IMG/VR virus record: IMGVR_UViG_3300046689_000634
Coordinates: 1 to 44,309 of that record
DNA: 44,309 nt
DNA from: a virus
Reading direction: 5' to 3' (one strand)
A program made the position numbers and the translations under genes. The notes beneath the pieces were generated by a model. The model worked only from the letters and a program-made list of their open reading frames with translations, searched no databases and was not told the origin of the DNA. Below are positions 4,535 through 21,028 of the stretch, piece after piece (the first letter of the stretch is position 1; each line of letters opens with the position of its first letter).

Positions 4535-4563
4535 TTGACAATCATATGATTCACTGATAACCT
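4535..4563 (+). promoter_or_regulatory. Promoter with palindromic operator for the TGT/DpdA-like operon
   Basis: Consensus -35 TTGACA (4535-4540), 17-base spacer, -10-like TAACCT (4558-4563). The spacer starts with the palindrome AATCATATGATT (4540-4551), identical to the integrase promoter operator and at the same register. Shared control by one repressor is the natural inference. The ribosome binding site GGAGG lies at 4571-4575. Confidence 0.75.
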
Positions 4564-4582: not shown

Positions 4583-5275
4583 ATGGCAACGAGAGAGAGC
4601 GGAAAGATGAAGGCTTACGTCGGGCAGACGCGCGCGGCCGTGCTCATCGACGAGCTCGCCGGCGCGGGCATCGGCGAGTGCGTGTGCCGCGGAGAGTTTC
4701 CCCCGCGGCGGTCGTTCTCGTGGTTCTACGACAACGGCGCGTTCAGCGACTTCAAGGCGGGCCGGCCGTTCGCCGTCGCGAAGTTCTGGCGCGAGCTCGC
4801 GCACATGGTCGACGTGGTCGAGCTGCAGGGGCACACCCTGCCCGACTTCGTCGTGCTGCCTGACCTGGTCGCCGGCGGCTGCGCGTCGCTGACCGAGTCG
4901 GCCAGCTGGCTCGAGGTCGTGCGCGGCTACGCGGCGCGCGGCGTGCGGTTCTACGTCGCGGTGCAGGACGGCATGACCGCGGCCGACGTCGAGGGGTTCC
5001 TCGAGCTCGCCGGCGACCTGGTGAGCGGCTTGTTCGTCGGGGGCTCCCTGCCCTGGAAGCTCGAGACAGGCGCCGCCTGGGTCACCCTGGCGCACGCGCG
5101 CGGCCTTCTGTGCCACGTCGGGCGCGTCGGCACCGCGGCGCGCGTGCAGTGGGCGCTCCGCATCGGTGCGGATTCGATCGACAGCTCGCTGCCGCTGTGG
5201 AGCTCGGCCAAGCTCGGCATCTTCCTCGAGGCGCTCCGCGGTCGGACGCGCTTCGGGCTGCAGGAGGTGGCGTGA
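4583..5275 (+). CDS. TIM-barrel protein resembling TGT/DpdA-type base-exchange enzymes
   Basis: ATG 4583 sits 7 bases after GGAGG; 230 residues. Motifs spread over a barrel-like pattern: YDNGAF (49-54), VVLPD (Asp94), VAVQDGM (Asp129), FVGGS (151-155), CHVGR (177-181) and GADSIDSS (Asp197, Asp200). Equivalents of these (GGxxVGE-like, late-barrel GxDxxD) occur in tRNA-guanine transglycosylases and in DpdA, which inserts 7-deazaguanines into DNA. This rests on recalled motif similarity, not alignment. The length is about half that of a full TGT, and no preQ0-making genes are present. It heads its own operon under the operator shared with int. Alternative: an uncharacterised TIM-barrel hydrolase. 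Confidence 0.55.
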   Translation: MATRESGKMKAYVGQTRAAVLIDELAGAGIGECVCRGEFPPRRSFSWFYDNGAFSDFKAGRPFAVAKFWRELAHMVDVVELQGHTLPDFVVLPDLVAGGCASLTESASWLEVVRGYAARGVRFYVAVQDGMTAADVEGFLELAGDLVSGLFVGGSLPWKLETGAAWVTLAHARGLLCHVGRVGTAARVQWALRIGADSIDSSLPLWSSAKLGIFLEALRGRTRFGLQEVA

Positions 5276-5583
5276 TGACGCGCACCTACCCGACGATCGA
5301 CCTGGCGGTGCGCGCGTTCGTGCGGCACGGCAAGAAGAAGGGGTTTGTGCGGGTGCTCGGCGGCGGCTGGTGGCAGGTGCAGGCCGGCCGGTCGTTCGCC
5401 TGGCGGGCGCAGGGGTTCGCGGACCTGCGTCGCAAGCTGCTGGCGCACTCGGTGCTGATGCAGCACCCGGGCGGGTCGGCGACGTTCACCGAGCCCGTCG
5501 TCAAGGCGGCGACGATCGGCGAGGTCGGCACGCTCGTGGTCGGCGAGCAGATGTTCCTGGCGCAGCTGCGGAGGCAACCATGA
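5275..5583 (+). CDS. Hypothetical protein, 102 aa
   Basis: ATG overlaps the previous stop by one base, with GGAGG just upstream. The product is basic and aromatic at the N-terminus (RHGKKKGFVRVLGGGWWQVQ), suggesting nucleic-acid contact by a small beta domain. No recognised family. It is the second gene of the operon that begins with the TGT/DpdA-like gene. Confidence 0.65.
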   Translation: MTRTYPTIDLAVRAFVRHGKKKGFVRVLGGGWWQVQAGRSFAWRAQGFADLRRKLLAHSVLMQHPGGSATFTEPVVKAATIGEVGTLVVGEQMFLAQLRRQP

Positions 5584-5753
5584 TGCGGCAACGCTGCTAC
5601 ACGGCGCGGTTCACCCGGGGCACCGACGTGCGCGCGTTCACGGTGTTCGCCTGGAACAAGGACGACGCCTACGTCGCCGCGCTGCGGGAGCTCGAGGCCG
5701 TCGTCGCCGACGCCCGCGCGTGGGCCTACTACGGCGTGGAGCGTGCGCGATGA
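5580..5753 (+). CDS. Hypothetical protein, 57 aa
   Basis: ATGATG start overlapping the previous stop. A small alpha/beta protein: basic strands (YTARFTRGTDVRAFTVFAWN) followed by an acidic helix (DDAYVAALRELEAVVADARA). GC-rich third positions and the four-base overlaps at both ends support it as a real gene. Function unknown. Confidence 0.6.
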   Translation: MMRQRCYTARFTRGTDVRAFTVFAWNKDDAYVAALRELEAVVADARAWAYYGVERAR

Positions 5754-6160
5754 AGCTGCCGGTGCGACGTGAGAAGGCCGAGCAGGCGGCCGGCGTGCAG
5801 CTGCTGCGCAGCGCGTGCGGCGCGCACGTCTACGTGCTCGGGCATCCGCGGCCGGCGGGCGACCGCCCGAGCACGATGCAGACGCCCGGCTTGCCGGACG
5901 TGATCGCGTTCCTGCCGGTGCCGCGGACCTGGACGGTCGACGTGCCGATCGTGCTGGTGATGTGGGAGGCGAAATCGAGCCGGGGCCGGCTGCGCCCCGA
6001 GCAGACGACGTTCCTCGAGCTCTGCCAGGCCGCCGAGGTGCGCCACGTCGTCGGCGACCTCGACGCGCTCATCGCCTGGCTGATCGAGTACGGGTTCCTG
6101 CAGCGCGGCCAGGTGCCGCACTACCGGCTGCCGGCCGAGCCCGCGGCGGTGCAACCATGA
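5750..6160 (+). CDS. VRR-NUC family nuclease, 136 aa
   Basis: PD-(D/E)xK endonuclease fold. The metal-binding set is visible as GLPD (Asp50) and WEAK (Glu73, Lys75), followed by RLRPEQTTFLELCQAAEV and VVGDLDALIAWL, the usual VRR-NUC C-terminal helices. VRR-NUC proteins in phages are small, structure-selective or Holliday-junction-type nucleases that act on replication or recombination intermediates. Overlaps at both ends place it in the operon after the TGT/DpdA-like gene, so a link between a modified or branched DNA substrate and this nuclease is possible but unproven. Confidence 0.85.
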   Translation: MKLPVRREKAEQAAGVQLLRSACGAHVYVLGHPRPAGDRPSTMQTPGLPDVIAFLPVPRTWTVDVPIVLVMWEAKSSRGRLRPEQTTFLELCQAAEVRHVVGDLDALIAWLIEYGFLQRGQVPHYRLPAEPAAVQP

Positions 6161-6348
6161 TGGCGAAGCGCGGCTACTCGCGCGCGTTCGCGCCGCACGG
6201 GTCGACGGGCAAGCGGTACCTGCTCGACCAGATCCCCGCCGGCCTCTGGGCGCGCGTGCGCGCGAAGGCCAAGGCCGACGGCGTCTCGCTACGGGCGCTC
6301 ATCTTGCAGCTGCTCCAGGCCTGGGTCGACGCGCCGCCGCCGGCCTGA
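6157..6348 (+). CDS. Ribbon-helix-helix-like small protein, 63 aa
   Basis: ATGATG start overlapping the previous stop. After a basic tail, YLLDQIPAGLWARVRAKAKA and SLRALILQLLQAWVD match the strand-helix-helix pattern of Arc/MetJ-type DNA-binding proteins ('ip..l...vk..A...g.Sl..li...l..w'). It is the last gene before the regulatory island, so it may bind one of the palindromes there. That is inferred from position only. Confidence 0.65.
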   Translation: MMAKRGYSRAFAPHGSTGKRYLLDQIPAGLWARVRAKAKADGVSLRALILQLLQAWVDAPPPA

Positions 6349-6372
6349 ACCCACCCCACCCCTGCCAGGCTC

Positions 6373-6397
6373 CTCGGTCGTACGCGGTACGACCGAG
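6373..6397 (+). terminator. Perfect 11-bp hairpin after the cargo operon
   Basis: CTCGGTCGTAC (6373-6383), loop GCG, GTACGACCGAG (6387-6397). It lies 25 bases after the last cargo stop, followed by CCCCCAATCC rather than a T-run. The position suits transcription termination between cargo and packaging genes. The site is symmetric, so a protein-binding role is also possible. Confidence 0.55.
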
Positions 6398-6471
6398 CCC
6401 CCAATCCCTTGAATTAGGTAGTCACCGCCGGCCGTGACCTGTCCTGTCAGCCCGACCTCAACCGTGTAAAT

Positions 6472-6487
6472 AGTTCCACGTGGAACA
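6472..6487. promoter_or_regulatory. ParB parS-like site
   Basis: The palindrome GTTCCACGTGGAAC (6473-6486), within AGTTCCACGTGGAACA, equals the core of the bacterial chromosomal parS consensus TGTTNCACGTGNAACA except for the first flanking base. No parA or parB gene is present in the window. It lies between the terminator-like hairpin and the packaging promoter. Confidence 0.7.
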
Positions 6488-6491
6488 ATAA

Positions 6492-6509
6492 TTGTCAGTC
6501 GACTGACAA
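6492..6509. promoter_or_regulatory. 18-bp perfect palindrome (operator-like)
   Basis: TTGTCAGTCGACTGACAA is fully symmetric around GTCGAC. It lies 5 bp after the parS-like site and 3 bp before the TTGTCA -35 box, whose sequence repeats the palindrome half-site. This is the geometry of a repressor or activator binding site controlling the packaging promoter. Confidence 0.65.
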
Positions 6510-8622: not shown

Positions 8623-9456
8623 ATGGCAACCGTTCTCGGTTCCGGCGTCACCGACCGCACCACCCCGGGTGTCGGCAACCGCGGCAGCGGCGCGCCGACC
8701 TCGAGCGCGACGAGCGCCGGCAAGGTCGACCCGATGGCGCTCATCAAGGAGGCCGAGCAGGGGCTCGCCGGCACGAGCGCGAACATCGACGTCGTCTTGT
8801 CGCGGCTGCAGGCCAAGGGCGTGTACGCCGCGCGCGCGACGCACGCCGGCGAGCTGCCGAGCGACGACAAGATCGTCCTGTCCGACGGCACGGTGGTCGA
8901 CCTGATCGGCGGCAACCCGGGCGATCCGTTTGGCGCGCTGGTCATCGGCCCCGGCGCCTACGGCAACCGCCCGGTCATCGTGAACGGGAAGGTCGTCAAG
9001 TTCAACGACTGGCAATCGACCGTCCCCACCGGCTCCGCGACCTGGGACCCGATCGCCAACGGCGCGCCGGGCCCGTGGGGGGGCGGCAAGGGCCCCGCCA
9101 CCCCGGGCCAGGACCAGCCGCCCGGGACGCCTCCGCCAGGCGCGCCGCCGGCGCCCAAGGGACCGAAGGCCCCCGACCAACCAGGCGACCCGCCCGACCT
9201 CCCGCCCAAGGGGCCGAAGCAGCGCGAGCCGGACCCACCCGGCGAGGGCAACGGCCCGCCGCCGGCGCCGGTGCCGCAGCCGAACCCGACCCCGGCGACC
9301 TCGCCGAACACGATGAACCTCTACTCGGCCGCCTACCAGGCCGCGCTGCGCGCGCGTCGCCGGAGCTCGGGCTCGGGGCGCTCGAGCACGGTGATGGCTG
9401 GCTTCGGCGGCGGCGGCGCCCCGAGCACGCAAACCGCGACGTTGTTGGGGAGGTAG
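8623..9456 (+). CDS. Virion-associated hypothetical protein with Pro-rich tail, 277 aa
   Basis: ATG 8623 follows GAGAGG. The N-terminal 130 residues are compact, with beta-type repeats (DDKIVLSDGTVVDLIGGNPG). Residues 145-230 are a Pro/Gly/Lys low-complexity linker. The C-terminus (TMNLYSAAYQAALRARRR) is helical and basic and would suit contact with DNA or the portal. It lies between terminase and portal, where many podoviruses keep small head or packaging factors. No family recognised. Confidence 0.7.
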   Translation: MATVLGSGVTDRTTPGVGNRGSGAPTSSATSAGKVDPMALIKEAEQGLAGTSANIDVVLSRLQAKGVYAARATHAGELPSDDKIVLSDGTVVDLIGGNPGDPFGALVIGPGAYGNRPVIVNGKVVKFNDWQSTVPTGSATWDPIANGAPGPWGGGKGPATPGQDQPPGTPPPGAPPAPKGPKAPDQPGDPPDLPPKGPKQREPDPPGEGNGPPPAPVPQPNPTPATSPNTMNLYSAAYQAALRARRRSSGSGRSSTVMAGFGGGGAPSTQTATLLGR

Positions 9457-9460
9457 CCGG

Positions 9461-11293
9461 ATGGCCGCAGGACCGATCCCCGGCGCCGCCCCCGTTGACC
9501 CGGGCCAACGCCCGCCGCCGCTCACGAGCGCGAGCGATCGCATCAAGATGCGCGACCGCTACGAGACGCTCCGCTCCGCGCTGAAGCTCGAGCGCGCGAC
9601 CTGGGACAGCCACTACAAGCTGCTCGCCGACTTCTTCGTCCCGCGGCGGCCGCGGTTCATGGTCACCGACCGCAACAAGGGCGACCGCCGCAACCAGCAC
9701 CTGATCGACGCGACCGGCCGCATGGCGGTGCGGACGCTGCAGGCCGGGCTGCACGCCGGGCTCACCTCGCCGGCGCGCCCGTGGATGAAGCTGTCGACGC
9801 CGTCGCCCGACCTGAACAAACGGCCGGCGGTGAAGCAGTGGCTGTTCGACGTGCGCGATCGCATGTTGTCGGTGTTCGAGCTCTCGAACGTCTACAACGC
9901 GCTGCCCCTGCTGTACGGCGACCTCGGCGTCTTCGGCACGTCGGCGATGACGATCCTCGAGGACGACCACGACCTGTTCCGCGCGTTCGTCCCGCCGATC
10001 GGCAGCTACGCGATCGCCTGCGACGCGCAGGGCCGGGTCAACACCTACTGCTACGACACCATCCTGAGCGTGCGGCAGCTGGTGATGGAGTACGCCGGCC
10101 TGAGCCCGTACCGCCCGCACGACCCCATCGACTGGTCGATGTTCTCCACGCACGTCAAGGACCTCTGGGACCGCGGCGTGTACGAAGCGCCGATCGAGGT
10201 GTCGTGGATCGTCGAGCCGAACGTCGACCAGGACGCCAGCCGCGTCGACTACCTCGCGATGCCGTACCGCTCGTGTCACTTCGAGCGCGGCGCGCCCGTC
10301 GCGCACGGTCGGCTGCTGCGCGAGGGCGGCTTCCAACAATTCCCCGTGATGTGTCCGCGGTGGGACGTCACCGGCAACGACTACTACGGCACCGACTGCC
10401 CGGGCATGACGGCGCTCGGCGACGTGATGGGGCTGCAGACGATGCAGCGCAAGAAGGGCCAGGCCGTCGAGAAGCTGATCAACCCGCCCGTGATGGCGCC
10501 GACGCACCTCCGCACGCAGAAGACCTCACTGCTCCCGGGCGACATCACCTACGTCGACGTGCGCGAAGGGCAGCAGGGGATCAAGCCGGTCCACGAGATT
10601 CGGATGACCCTGCAGGATTTTCGGCAGGACATCCTGCAGACGCAGGCGATCGTGCAGCAGGCGTTCTTCGTCGACCTGTTCCGCATGATGACGCAGCTCG
10701 ACGAGCGCGGCGGCGTGCAACCGATCACCGCGGCCGAGGTCAACGAGCGCCGCGAAGAAAAGCTGCTCGCGCTCGGCCCCGTGCTCGAGCGCACCAACGA
10801 CGAGCTCCTCGACCCGTTCATCGATCGCGTGTTCGCGCTGATGGCGCGGCACGAGGGGATGATTCCGCCGGCGCCGCCCGAGCTCGCCGGCGTGCAGCTG
10901 CGCGTCGAGTACACGTCGATCATGGCGCAGGCCCAGAAGCTCGTGGGCGTCGTCGCGCTCGATCGCTTCCTTCAGGCCACCGGCTCGATGGCCGGCATCT
11001 GGCCCGAGGCCACGCTCAAGGTCAAACCGTTCACCGCGGTCGACGAATACCAGGACGCGCTCGGCGTGGACCCCGACCTGGTCCGCACGGACGAGGAAGC
11101 CGGCGCGATCATGGACGCCCGCCAGAAGGCGCAGCAGCAGGCGCAGGCGCCCGAGTCGCTGCAGCGCACCGCGGCCGGCGTCAAGAGTCTCGCCCAGGCG
11201 CCCACCGGTGGGCCCAACAACGAAAGCGCGCTGTCGCAGCTCCTCGCGGGCGTGCAGGGCGCCCCGGGCGGCAGCGGCCCCGCGCCGGCGTAA
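9461..11293 (+). CDS. Portal (head-tail connector) protein, 610 aa
   Basis: T7 gp8-type connector: twelve copies would form the ring through which DNA enters and leaves the head. Recognised from the overall pattern: an N-terminal helix with RDRYETLRSALKLERATWDS, ADFFVPRRPRF, RTLQAGLHAGLTSPARPW and GDLGVFGTSAM, then a long helical crown region. The C-terminal 90 residues are Gln/Ala-rich. Ribosome binding site GGGGAGGT precedes ATG 9461. The length is somewhat above the T7 portal's roughly 536 residues. Next to terminase on one side and a Bbp19-like protein on the other. Confidence 0.93.
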   Translation: MAAGPIPGAAPVDPGQRPPPLTSASDRIKMRDRYETLRSALKLERATWDSHYKLLADFFVPRRPRFMVTDRNKGDRRNQHLIDATGRMAVRTLQAGLHAGLTSPARPWMKLSTPSPDLNKRPAVKQWLFDVRDRMLSVFELSNVYNALPLLYGDLGVFGTSAMTILEDDHDLFRAFVPPIGSYAIACDAQGRVNTYCYDTILSVRQLVMEYAGLSPYRPHDPIDWSMFSTHVKDLWDRGVYEAPIEVSWIVEPNVDQDASRVDYLAMPYRSCHFERGAPVAHGRLLREGGFQQFPVMCPRWDVTGNDYYGTDCPGMTALGDVMGLQTMQRKKGQAVEKLINPPVMAPTHLRTQKTSLLPGDITYVDVREGQQGIKPVHEIRMTLQDFRQDILQTQAIVQQAFFVDLFRMMTQLDERGGVQPITAAEVNERREEKLLALGPVLERTNDELLDPFIDRVFALMARHEGMIPPAPPELAGVQLRVEYTSIMAQAQKLVGVVALDRFLQATGSMAGIWPEATLKVKPFTAVDEYQDALGVDPDLVRTDEEAGAIMDARQKAQQQAQAPESLQRTAAGVKSLAQAPTGGPNNESALSQLLAGVQGAPGGSGPAPA

Positions 11294-18896: not shown

Positions 18897-21028
18897 TGCC
18901 GTCCCCTGCCGGCAGCGTCGTCCAGCGCGCGTTCACCTCCGGCGAAATCTCGCCGGCGGCCGCGGCGCGCGCCGACCTGGTGAAGTACACGTCGGGCCTG
19001 CGGACCTGTCGCAACTTCATCGTGCAGAAGCACGGCGGCGTCACCAAGCGGCCCGGCTTCCGGTTCATCGCGAAGACGAAGTTTGGCGCGCTCGGGTGCC
19101 GGCTGGTGCCGTTCATCTTCGAGGCGGCCGACCAGACGTACGTGCTCGAGGTGGGCGAGTACTACATTCGCTTCTTCTGGCACGGCGCGCCGGTGATGGA
19201 TGGCGGCAGCCCGCTCGAGGTCGTGACGCCCTGGAACCACAACGAGGCGCAGGAGGTGCGGTGGTCGCAGTCGGCCGACGTGATCATCTTCACGCACCCG
19301 AACCACCCGGTGATGCAGCTCGAGCGCCAGGCCCACACCACCTGGGTGCTCTCAGCCAAGGTGTTCACGCCCACGATCGAGCCGCCGCTCGGCATCGTCG
19401 GCAGCTTCCTCGGCACCGGCACCTACAACCCGACCTACGTCGTGACGTCGCAGAAGATCGGCACGTACGAGGAGTCGCTCGGCTCGCCGCCGCTGTCGCT
19501 GACGGGCGCGCCGATGCCGACGCCGTCGAGCCCGATCAGCATCCATCACACGTATCCGGCCGACGGCGCCGCGCAGTACAACGTCTACTGCGACCCCTAC
19601 GGCAACGGCATCTTCGGGCTGCTCGGGTCGTACGAGAAGAGCTACCTCGGCTTCAACGACGTCGGGTTCTTGCCCGACTACACCATCAGCCCGCCGATCG
19701 CGCAGGTCGTGTTCGACGCGCCCGGGAACTACCCGGCGTGCTGCACGTTCTTTCAGCAGCGCATCTGGTTCGCCCGCTCGAACAACGAGCGCGAGAAAAT
19801 CTGGGGCTCGCGCGTCGGCGCGTTCAGCAACTTCGCGATCAGCGTGCCGCTGCAGGACGACGACGCGGTCAACTTCGTGCTCGCGCAGAAGACCCTGAGC
19901 CCGGTCGTCGACCTCATTCCGATGCGGCAGCTCATCGTGCTCACCGACACCGGCGAGTGGCGCATCCGCGGCGACCAGGACAACGTCGTCACGCCGACCG
20001 GCATCAACGCGGAGCCCGAGAGCTACGCCGGCGGCTCCGAGTTCGTACGGCCGATCACCATCGGCAACACGGTGCTGTACTGCCAGGCGCGCGGCACCAT
20101 CGTGCGCGAGCTGAAGTTCGACTTCACCGCGCAGGGGTTCGTCACGCGCGACCTGACCCTGTTCAGCAATCACCTCTTCGGCGCGAGCTCGCTCGGCGAC
20201 GTGGGCAAGGTGTGCTTCCTGATGGACATGACGTACCAGCAGCAGCCGAACAGCATCGTGTGGACGGTGCGCGCGAACGACGGCGTGCTGCTCGGCCTGA
20301 CCTACGTGCCCGACCAGGAGATTGAAGGCTGGCACCGCCACGACACCGACGGCATGTTCGAGCAGGTCACGGCCGTGCCGAACACGTCGATCGGCGAGGA
20401 CGAGCTCTACGCCGTCATCATTCGGCACATCGGTGGCGTCGACACGCGCTACATCGAGAAGCTCGATCGGATGCAGGTCGACGAAGAGGCCGACTGGTTC
20501 TTCGTCGATTCCGGCCTGACGTACGAGGGCCCGCCGGCGAGCTCGTTCTCGGGGCTCGGGCACCTCGAGGGCAAGGTCGTCGCGGTGCTCGGCGACGGCC
20601 AGGTCGTCTTCGACGGCGACCCGAGCTCGCCGCGCGCGGCCGCCTTCACGGTCACCGGCGGCGCGATCGCGGCCCTGGGCGCGAGCTACTCGAAGGTGCA
20701 TGCGGGCCTGCCGATTCGCTTCGCCGAGGTGCAGTTCCTGAGCATCGACGTGCAGGGCGTCGCCATTCGCGAGAAGCGCAAACAGGTGCGCGCGATCTCG
20801 CTCGTGCTCGACCAGAGCTCGATCAGCTTCTGGGCCGGCCGCGACCTCGATCATCTGATCAAGAAACGGCCGGAGGCCTGGGAGGTGGCGGCGGCGCGCG
20901 TCACCGGCTTGTACGAGCTGAACATCACCACCAACTTCGACGAGAACGCCTCGGGGTGGGTGCGCCACACGGACCCGACGCCGTTCACGTTGCTCGCAGC
21001 CATCCCGCTGCTCGCGGTGGGCGGATGA
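18896..21028 (+). CDS. Tail tubular protein B, 710 aa
   Basis: T7 gp12-type nozzle protein of the short tail. The N-terminus has the family signature FTSGEISPAAAARADLVKYT, TCRNFIVQKHGGVTKRPGFR. The rest is a beta-rich propeller-type body (YNVYCDPYGNGIFGLLGS, DTGEWRIRGDQDNV, EIEGWHRHDTDGMFEQVTAV) ending in a KRPEAWEVAAARVTG-type helix. Length is close to the T7 protein (about 794). Adjacent to tail tubular A, as in all T7-like phages. Confidence 0.92.
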   Translation: MPSPAGSVVQRAFTSGEISPAAAARADLVKYTSGLRTCRNFIVQKHGGVTKRPGFRFIAKTKFGALGCRLVPFIFEAADQTYVLEVGEYYIRFFWHGAPVMDGGSPLEVVTPWNHNEAQEVRWSQSADVIIFTHPNHPVMQLERQAHTTWVLSAKVFTPTIEPPLGIVGSFLGTGTYNPTYVVTSQKIGTYEESLGSPPLSLTGAPMPTPSSPISIHHTYPADGAAQYNVYCDPYGNGIFGLLGSYEKSYLGFNDVGFLPDYTISPPIAQVVFDAPGNYPACCTFFQQRIWFARSNNEREKIWGSRVGAFSNFAISVPLQDDDAVNFVLAQKTLSPVVDLIPMRQLIVLTDTGEWRIRGDQDNVVTPTGINAEPESYAGGSEFVRPITIGNTVLYCQARGTIVRELKFDFTAQGFVTRDLTLFSNHLFGASSLGDVGKVCFLMDMTYQQQPNSIVWTVRANDGVLLGLTYVPDQEIEGWHRHDTDGMFEQVTAVPNTSIGEDELYAVIIRHIGGVDTRYIEKLDRMQVDEEADWFFVDSGLTYEGPPASSFSGLGHLEGKVVAVLGDGQVVFDGDPSSPRAAAFTVTGGAIAALGASYSKVHAGLPIRFAEVQFLSIDVQGVAIREKRKQVRAISLVLDQSSISFWAGRDLDHLIKKRPEAWEVAAARVTGLYELNITTNFDENASGWVRHTDPTPFTLLAAIPLLAVGG

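Follow-up and report, generated by a model that had tools for sequence, protein, structure and literature searches.

A short DpdA-like protein of a temperate phage, and the link of its family to single preQ0-pathway genes

A compact run of five genes lies between the integrase and the terminase of a 44,309-base virus record with a GC content of 70% (here called the window, the whole stretch of DNA that was analysed). A first-pass annotation made from the sequence alone read the first of these genes as a short relative of tRNA-guanine transglycosylase (TGT) and of phage DpdA, paired with a nuclease under one regulated promoter. The locus raises the question of what such a protein would do in a phage, on which nucleic acid it would act, and from where it would draw its base. 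The window is a temperate phage, carrying an integrase and a portal that is about 44% identical to the portal of epsilon15-like phages. A complete tRNA-Pro(CGG) at 2649-2725, directly after the integrase, is a candidate attachment site and could name the host. ARAGORN also called a tRNA-Phe on the minus strand at 19614-19693, within a region of long plus-strand open reading frames (ORFs), which is probably a false call, and an Rfam search of the window gave no match.

The five-gene operon and its upstream region

The genes run head-to-tail, with adjacent pairs overlapping by one or four bases, and an operator-like palindrome precedes them:

1126-1137, no strand: second copy of AATCATATGATT, before the integrase
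4540-4551, no strand: AATCATATGATT, perfect 12-bp palindrome, operator-like, before the operon; one of two copies in the window
4583-5275, plus strand: gene 1, short DpdA-like transglycosylase by predicted TGT fold and motif conservation, 230 aa (phrog_15826, 4e-28); key residues D50, D94, Q128, G153, G154, H178 and D200
5275-5583, plus strand: gene 2, 102-aa protein with no credible family match, overlapping the gene 1 stop by one base
5580-5753, plus strand: gene 3, 57-aa protein with no credible family match and coding-type GC, joined to gene 2 by an ATGA overlap
5750-6160, plus strand: gene 4, candidate VRR-NUC-type nuclease, 136 aa, with a WEAK (E-x-K) motif (PF08774, E 1.2e-4)
6157-6348, plus strand: gene 5, Arc-like ribbon-helix-helix (RHH) protein, 63 aa (phrog_6506, 6e-7)

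The five overlapping genes first proposed are borne out by their coordinates in the sequence and by GC contents of about 0.70/0.50/0.95 by codon position, a coding-type pattern found in all five as in the terminase and integrase. The description of genes 2 and 3 as small proteins without known function holds, as does that of gene 5 as an RHH protein. For gene 4, the Pfam VRR_NUC score of 22.5 bits falls just below the cut-off of 23.8, an AlphaFold2 model run without relatives (pLDDT 48) is too poor to judge the fold, and tblastn found no phage match. The only relatives found for genes 2 and 4 come from two contigs, both copies of the window phage, and none of the operon genes was found in terminase relatives, most of whose contigs are short. 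To the extent that it could be examined, the local operon apart from gene 1 is ordinary phage gene packing.

A single regulated promoter had also been proposed. The palindrome AATCATATGATT occurs exactly twice in the window against 0.04 occurrences expected, and both copies lie within the 17-base spacer of promoter-like hexamers read by eye (GTAACA...TAGACT and TTGACA...TAACCT). A consensus promoter scan called neither these hexamers nor any operon promoter on the operon strand, and the single regulated promoter is therefore putative. We may fairly infer that a shared repressor acts at both copies, for which gene 5 is one candidate; because the palindrome is common to operon and integrase, the operon of gene 1 probably switches with the lysis-lysogeny programme.

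Fold and active site of gene 1

Gene 1 belongs to a PHROG of unknown function, and is matched by no Pfam model up to an E-value of 5, the TGT model PF01702 included, and by no NCBIfam model. The NCBIfam DpdA equivalog NF041059 leaves out gene 1 and also places the phage DpdAs of Sonali (gp87) and JenP1 under its cut-off. When gene 1 and its profiles were searched by sequence against the PDB, the matches were all weak and meaningless and were set aside. Distant relatives in isolated phages already bear the label "DpdA-like tRNA-guanine transglycosylase": the proteins so named in Bhagsy, Sonali and Aoka (SEA-PHAGES) belong to the gene 1 family together with ReqiPine5 gp03, and are 24-30% identical to gene 1 over the alignment.

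The superfamily is indicated by predicted structure and by profile comparison. An AlphaFold2 model built from 76 aligned sequences (pLDDT 93.8, pTM 0.91) has a TGT-type TIM barrel rather than an unrelated fold. Foldseek against the PDB places TGT at the top (E 7e-6, probability 1.0), and the VIA aligner gives a best Z of 16.5 over 213 of 230 residues at 3.0 A, with TGT in all 50 best PDB rows listed; viral structure matches include named queuine tRNA-ribosyltransferases. In hhalign the family profile scores 47.4 against phage DpdA (E 3.6e-6) and 41.4 against cellular TGT (E 4e-5), although the N-terminal half of the family is not sensibly aligned in the global comparison with TGT. Forty column shuffles per comparison (80 in all) reached at most 20.1 for DpdA and 21.2 for TGT, so that the real DpdA score is more than twice that of its shuffled controls; reversed profiles scored about 14.5, and the unrelated profiles of QueC, QueD, QueE and Vut did not exceed 19.9. 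Among known DpdA phages, the family profile matches the DpdA of Salmonella phage 7-11 at 5.6e-5 and those of Seurat and Sonali (gp87) weakly. Together with the active-site motifs and the gene neighbourhood described below, the predicted model and these comparisons give strong support for placing gene 1 in the TGT/DpdA superfamily, as a short member without a zinc site.

Against bacterial TGT (PF01702), the TIM-barrel fold, the nucleophile region and the base-pocket motifs align, whereas gene 1 is about 140 residues shorter. The C-terminal zinc site of TGT (CxCxxC...H) is absent, with no Cys conserved across the family, and the protein ends about 30 residues past D200. Phage DpdA of the Enterobacteria phage 9g, CAjan and Rosebush type (PMC6884629) shares with the family the motif order D(S/N)GAF, D-(I/V), GG, HxG and S-x-D-S-S. 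The two differ in length (270-360 aa in DpdA, about 200-230 aa in the family) and in the DpdA motif FHxGE, where the family has Q128 in place of His. Salmonella phage 7-11, which has no preQ0 genes, encodes a lone DpdA (234 aa) that is short like gene 1 and has the DNGAF and PDV motifs as well; this protein falls in the DpdA profile (about 3e-18) and only weakly in the gene 1 family.

Conservation was counted over 101 non-redundant relatives. P93, D94, Q128, G153, G154, H178 and D200 are invariant, N51 is invariant where the alignment covers it, and D50 is Asp in 98 of 99 members. The TGT alignment pairs DSIDSS with DMFDCV, VQDGM with VQGGM and FVGGS with the GG motif, while that with DpdA pairs DNGAF with DSGAF, PDLVAGG with LDVIGDW, FVGGS with IAIGGC and SIDSS with STDSS. 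Since the first of these sets D200 at the position of the TGT nucleophile, D200 is the likely nucleophile, and Q128, G153 and G154 align with the TGT base pocket. By motif order and the DpdA alignment, rather than by direct alignment with TGT, D50 and D94 would be equivalent to TGT D102 and D156. The roles of these two TGT residues are established. H178, aligned to the IHGLR His in the DpdA of 7-11, may correspond to the conserved His that DpdA2 lacks (PMC6884629).

These counts amend the aspartates named at first, Asp94, Asp129 and Asp197, whose absence from homologues was to speak against the assignment. D94 stands; position 129 is Asp or Asn with one exception, and D197 varies widely and is no conserved catalytic residue, the invariant residue being D200, while D50 had been overlooked. 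Taken literally, the absence of a conserved Asp197 would fail gene 1, though only because the wrong aspartate was named.

The solved structures nearest in fold are tRNA enzymes, and an earlier suggestion was that single preQ0 genes in phages raise tRNA queuosine (PMC6884629), from which it could be argued that gene 1 is a phage TGT whose target is the tRNA of host or phage, and that its effect during infection is on translation and not a mark on phage DNA. We regard this as unlikely: gene 1 has neither the zinc site of TGT nor its additional C-terminal part, its nearest characterised phage relatives by profile are DpdAs, which are tied to DNA modification, and several family members lie near DNA methylases, which are common in phages, or near a DNA polymerase gene.

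Gene neighbourhood of the family

Relatives were gathered by family pattern alone, taking the best 80 of 526 viral-contig matches and 55 in genomes, and every ORF up to 3 kb from the family gene was surveyed with phmmer and clustering. The commonest same-strand neighbours include QueC (16 loci), Vut_1/YhhQ (11), QueD (9) and QueE (8), YhhQ being a preQ0 transporter (PMC6884629). Of 101 relatives, 41 have a gene for preQ0 synthesis or uptake no more than 1.5 kb from the family gene, 30 with a synthesis gene (QueC, QueD, QueE or FolE), 11 with a YhhQ/Vut_1 transporter and none with both; in the remaining 60, the window included, a pathway gene was not found nearby. Pfam searches of whole records found nine QueC, six QueD and one FolE in 49 records and four Vut_1 in 47, and none of these 20 genes is more than 1,019 bases from the family gene when distances are taken between midpoints. 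Under uniform placement, such clustering would have a probability of about 10^-25 on a naive estimate, a figure that overstates the case because of the relatedness of the phages. One short contig holds another Vut_1, which also adjoins the family gene.

A tree of 97 members, with weak support for many of its inner branches, requires 26 or more changes of neighbour state, and the link has thus been gained or exchanged repeatedly. The recurrence of preQ0 genes and transporters ties the family to 7-deazaguanine, despite its "unknown" label in PHROGs and the lack of a Pfam model. FolE, QueD, QueE or QueC neighbours are a trait shared with phage DpdA, which has the full preQ0 set where the gene 1 family usually sits beside one pathway gene or transporter. 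The transporter lies just upstream in Bhagsy, ReqiPine5 and Aoka and is absent in the window. Arthrobacter phage Sonali (L012) carries both a short family member (5884-6501) and, at 8871-9761, a DpdA of canonical type accompanied by a complete preQ0 cluster, which suggests that the two enzyme types have different targets.

Many members have a single preQ0 step next to them: QueE alone in L067, L082 and L142, QueD alone in L021, L061 and L063, and FolE alone in L073. Other neighbours are more varied. Downstream of the nearest relative (L003, 2699-5101) is a frame with ParB_N, N6/N4 DNA methylase and PLP-enzyme domain matches; a DUF1643 gene (L004, 5702-6223; 1e-41) directly follows a member that is about 52-54% identical to gene 1; and PAPS-reductase-type genes occur near members in L013 (6598-7515) and L010 (7463-8506), from ReqiPine5 and vB_EliS_R6L.

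The nuclease pairing fares differently. Gene 1 and the VRR-NUC gene had been thought to recall modification-restriction logic, in which the mark would protect self and the nuclease would cut unmarked competitors; the two genes do belong to one transcription unit of overlapping genes, and gene 4 does resemble VRR-NUC. Across the 49 family-bearing records, however, a VRR-NUC gene is present in four and adjoins the family gene in the window only, the other three lying at distances of about 6 kb (L051), 20 kb (L024) and 40 kb (L066). Confined to copies of the window phage, genes 2 and 4 are likewise not shared with other members, with the caution that fast-evolving small genes can be missed. VRR-NUC was accordingly rejected as a conserved family partner; among the family neighbours no conserved nuclease partner was found, the operon's own being a VRR-NUC candidate. 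Because the pairing is not conserved, the modification-restriction logic is unsupported, and we consider it highly improbable. Most likely the VRR-NUC and RHH genes are ordinary early phage genes carried on the gene 1 transcript.

Precursor supply, proposed mechanism and significance

Pfam searches of the whole window found no QueC, QueD, FolE or Vut_1, and a profile built from the QueE of the relatives, the sole probe used for that gene, found no QueE either. As no preQ0-synthesis or uptake gene was detected, gene 1 would depend on a precursor from the host, which is the best reading of the window and agrees with what was first suggested. There is precedent in the phages 7-11 and MED16, which have DpdA only and carry low dADG (PMC6884629, PMC8306585), at trace level in 7-11 (PMC6884629). 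In phage Orion, which has a lone DpdA and a host without preQ0, the DNA is unmodified (PMC6884629); an enzyme of this sort can thus stand idle when alone. Orion, and the missing pathway gene of the window, lend themselves to a reading in which gene 1 is idle or nearly so in its natural host, as the orphan of a pathway-bearing ancestor, or exchanges a base other than 7-deazaguanine. That seems to us quite unlikely, given that the catalytic positions are all intact and that the window's close relatives include pathway-linked members: on the tree it groups with L006 and L024 (QueC) and L026 (QueD and QueE), and the close relative L021 carries QueD.

We think it probable that gene 1 encodes a DNA transglycosylase which exchanges guanine for a host-supplied 7-deazaguanine, marking or shielding the phage DNA, from an operon switched together with the integrase. 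In such an enzyme D200 would attack the sugar of a guanine in DNA and the guanine base would be released; D50, D94, Q128 and G153/G154 would hold the 7-deazaguanine (preQ0 or a close relative), which would then take the place of guanine. Phage DNA modified in this way may be marked and shielded from host nucleases, while the downstream products would be a phage nuclease (VRR-NUC) and perhaps an autoregulator (RHH). The family as a whole invites a broader and more speculative idea, to which we give a small chance, that these are minimal DNA transglycosylases and that each phage brings along just the one precursor step, or the importer, in which its host is deficient or limiting. Members with only QueD or QueE might then insert intermediates other than preQ0, and in the window phage the co-expressed nuclease might also read the mark.

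Gene 1 itself represents a short version of an enzyme type already known; the wider result is the link of its mostly unlabelled family to single preQ0-pathway genes or an importer. The 526 relatives in one viral collection, "unknown" in PHROGs and outside Pfam, are thereby joined to the 7-deazaguanine DNA-modification pathway. A 2019 phage survey set QueC and FolE singletons aside and found YhhQ uncorrelated with group (PMC6884629); in the present family a single QueC, QueD, QueE, FolE or YhhQ repeatedly adjoins the short enzyme. The link can therefore be tested directly, by asking what base is present in each phage and if the adjoining gene determines it.
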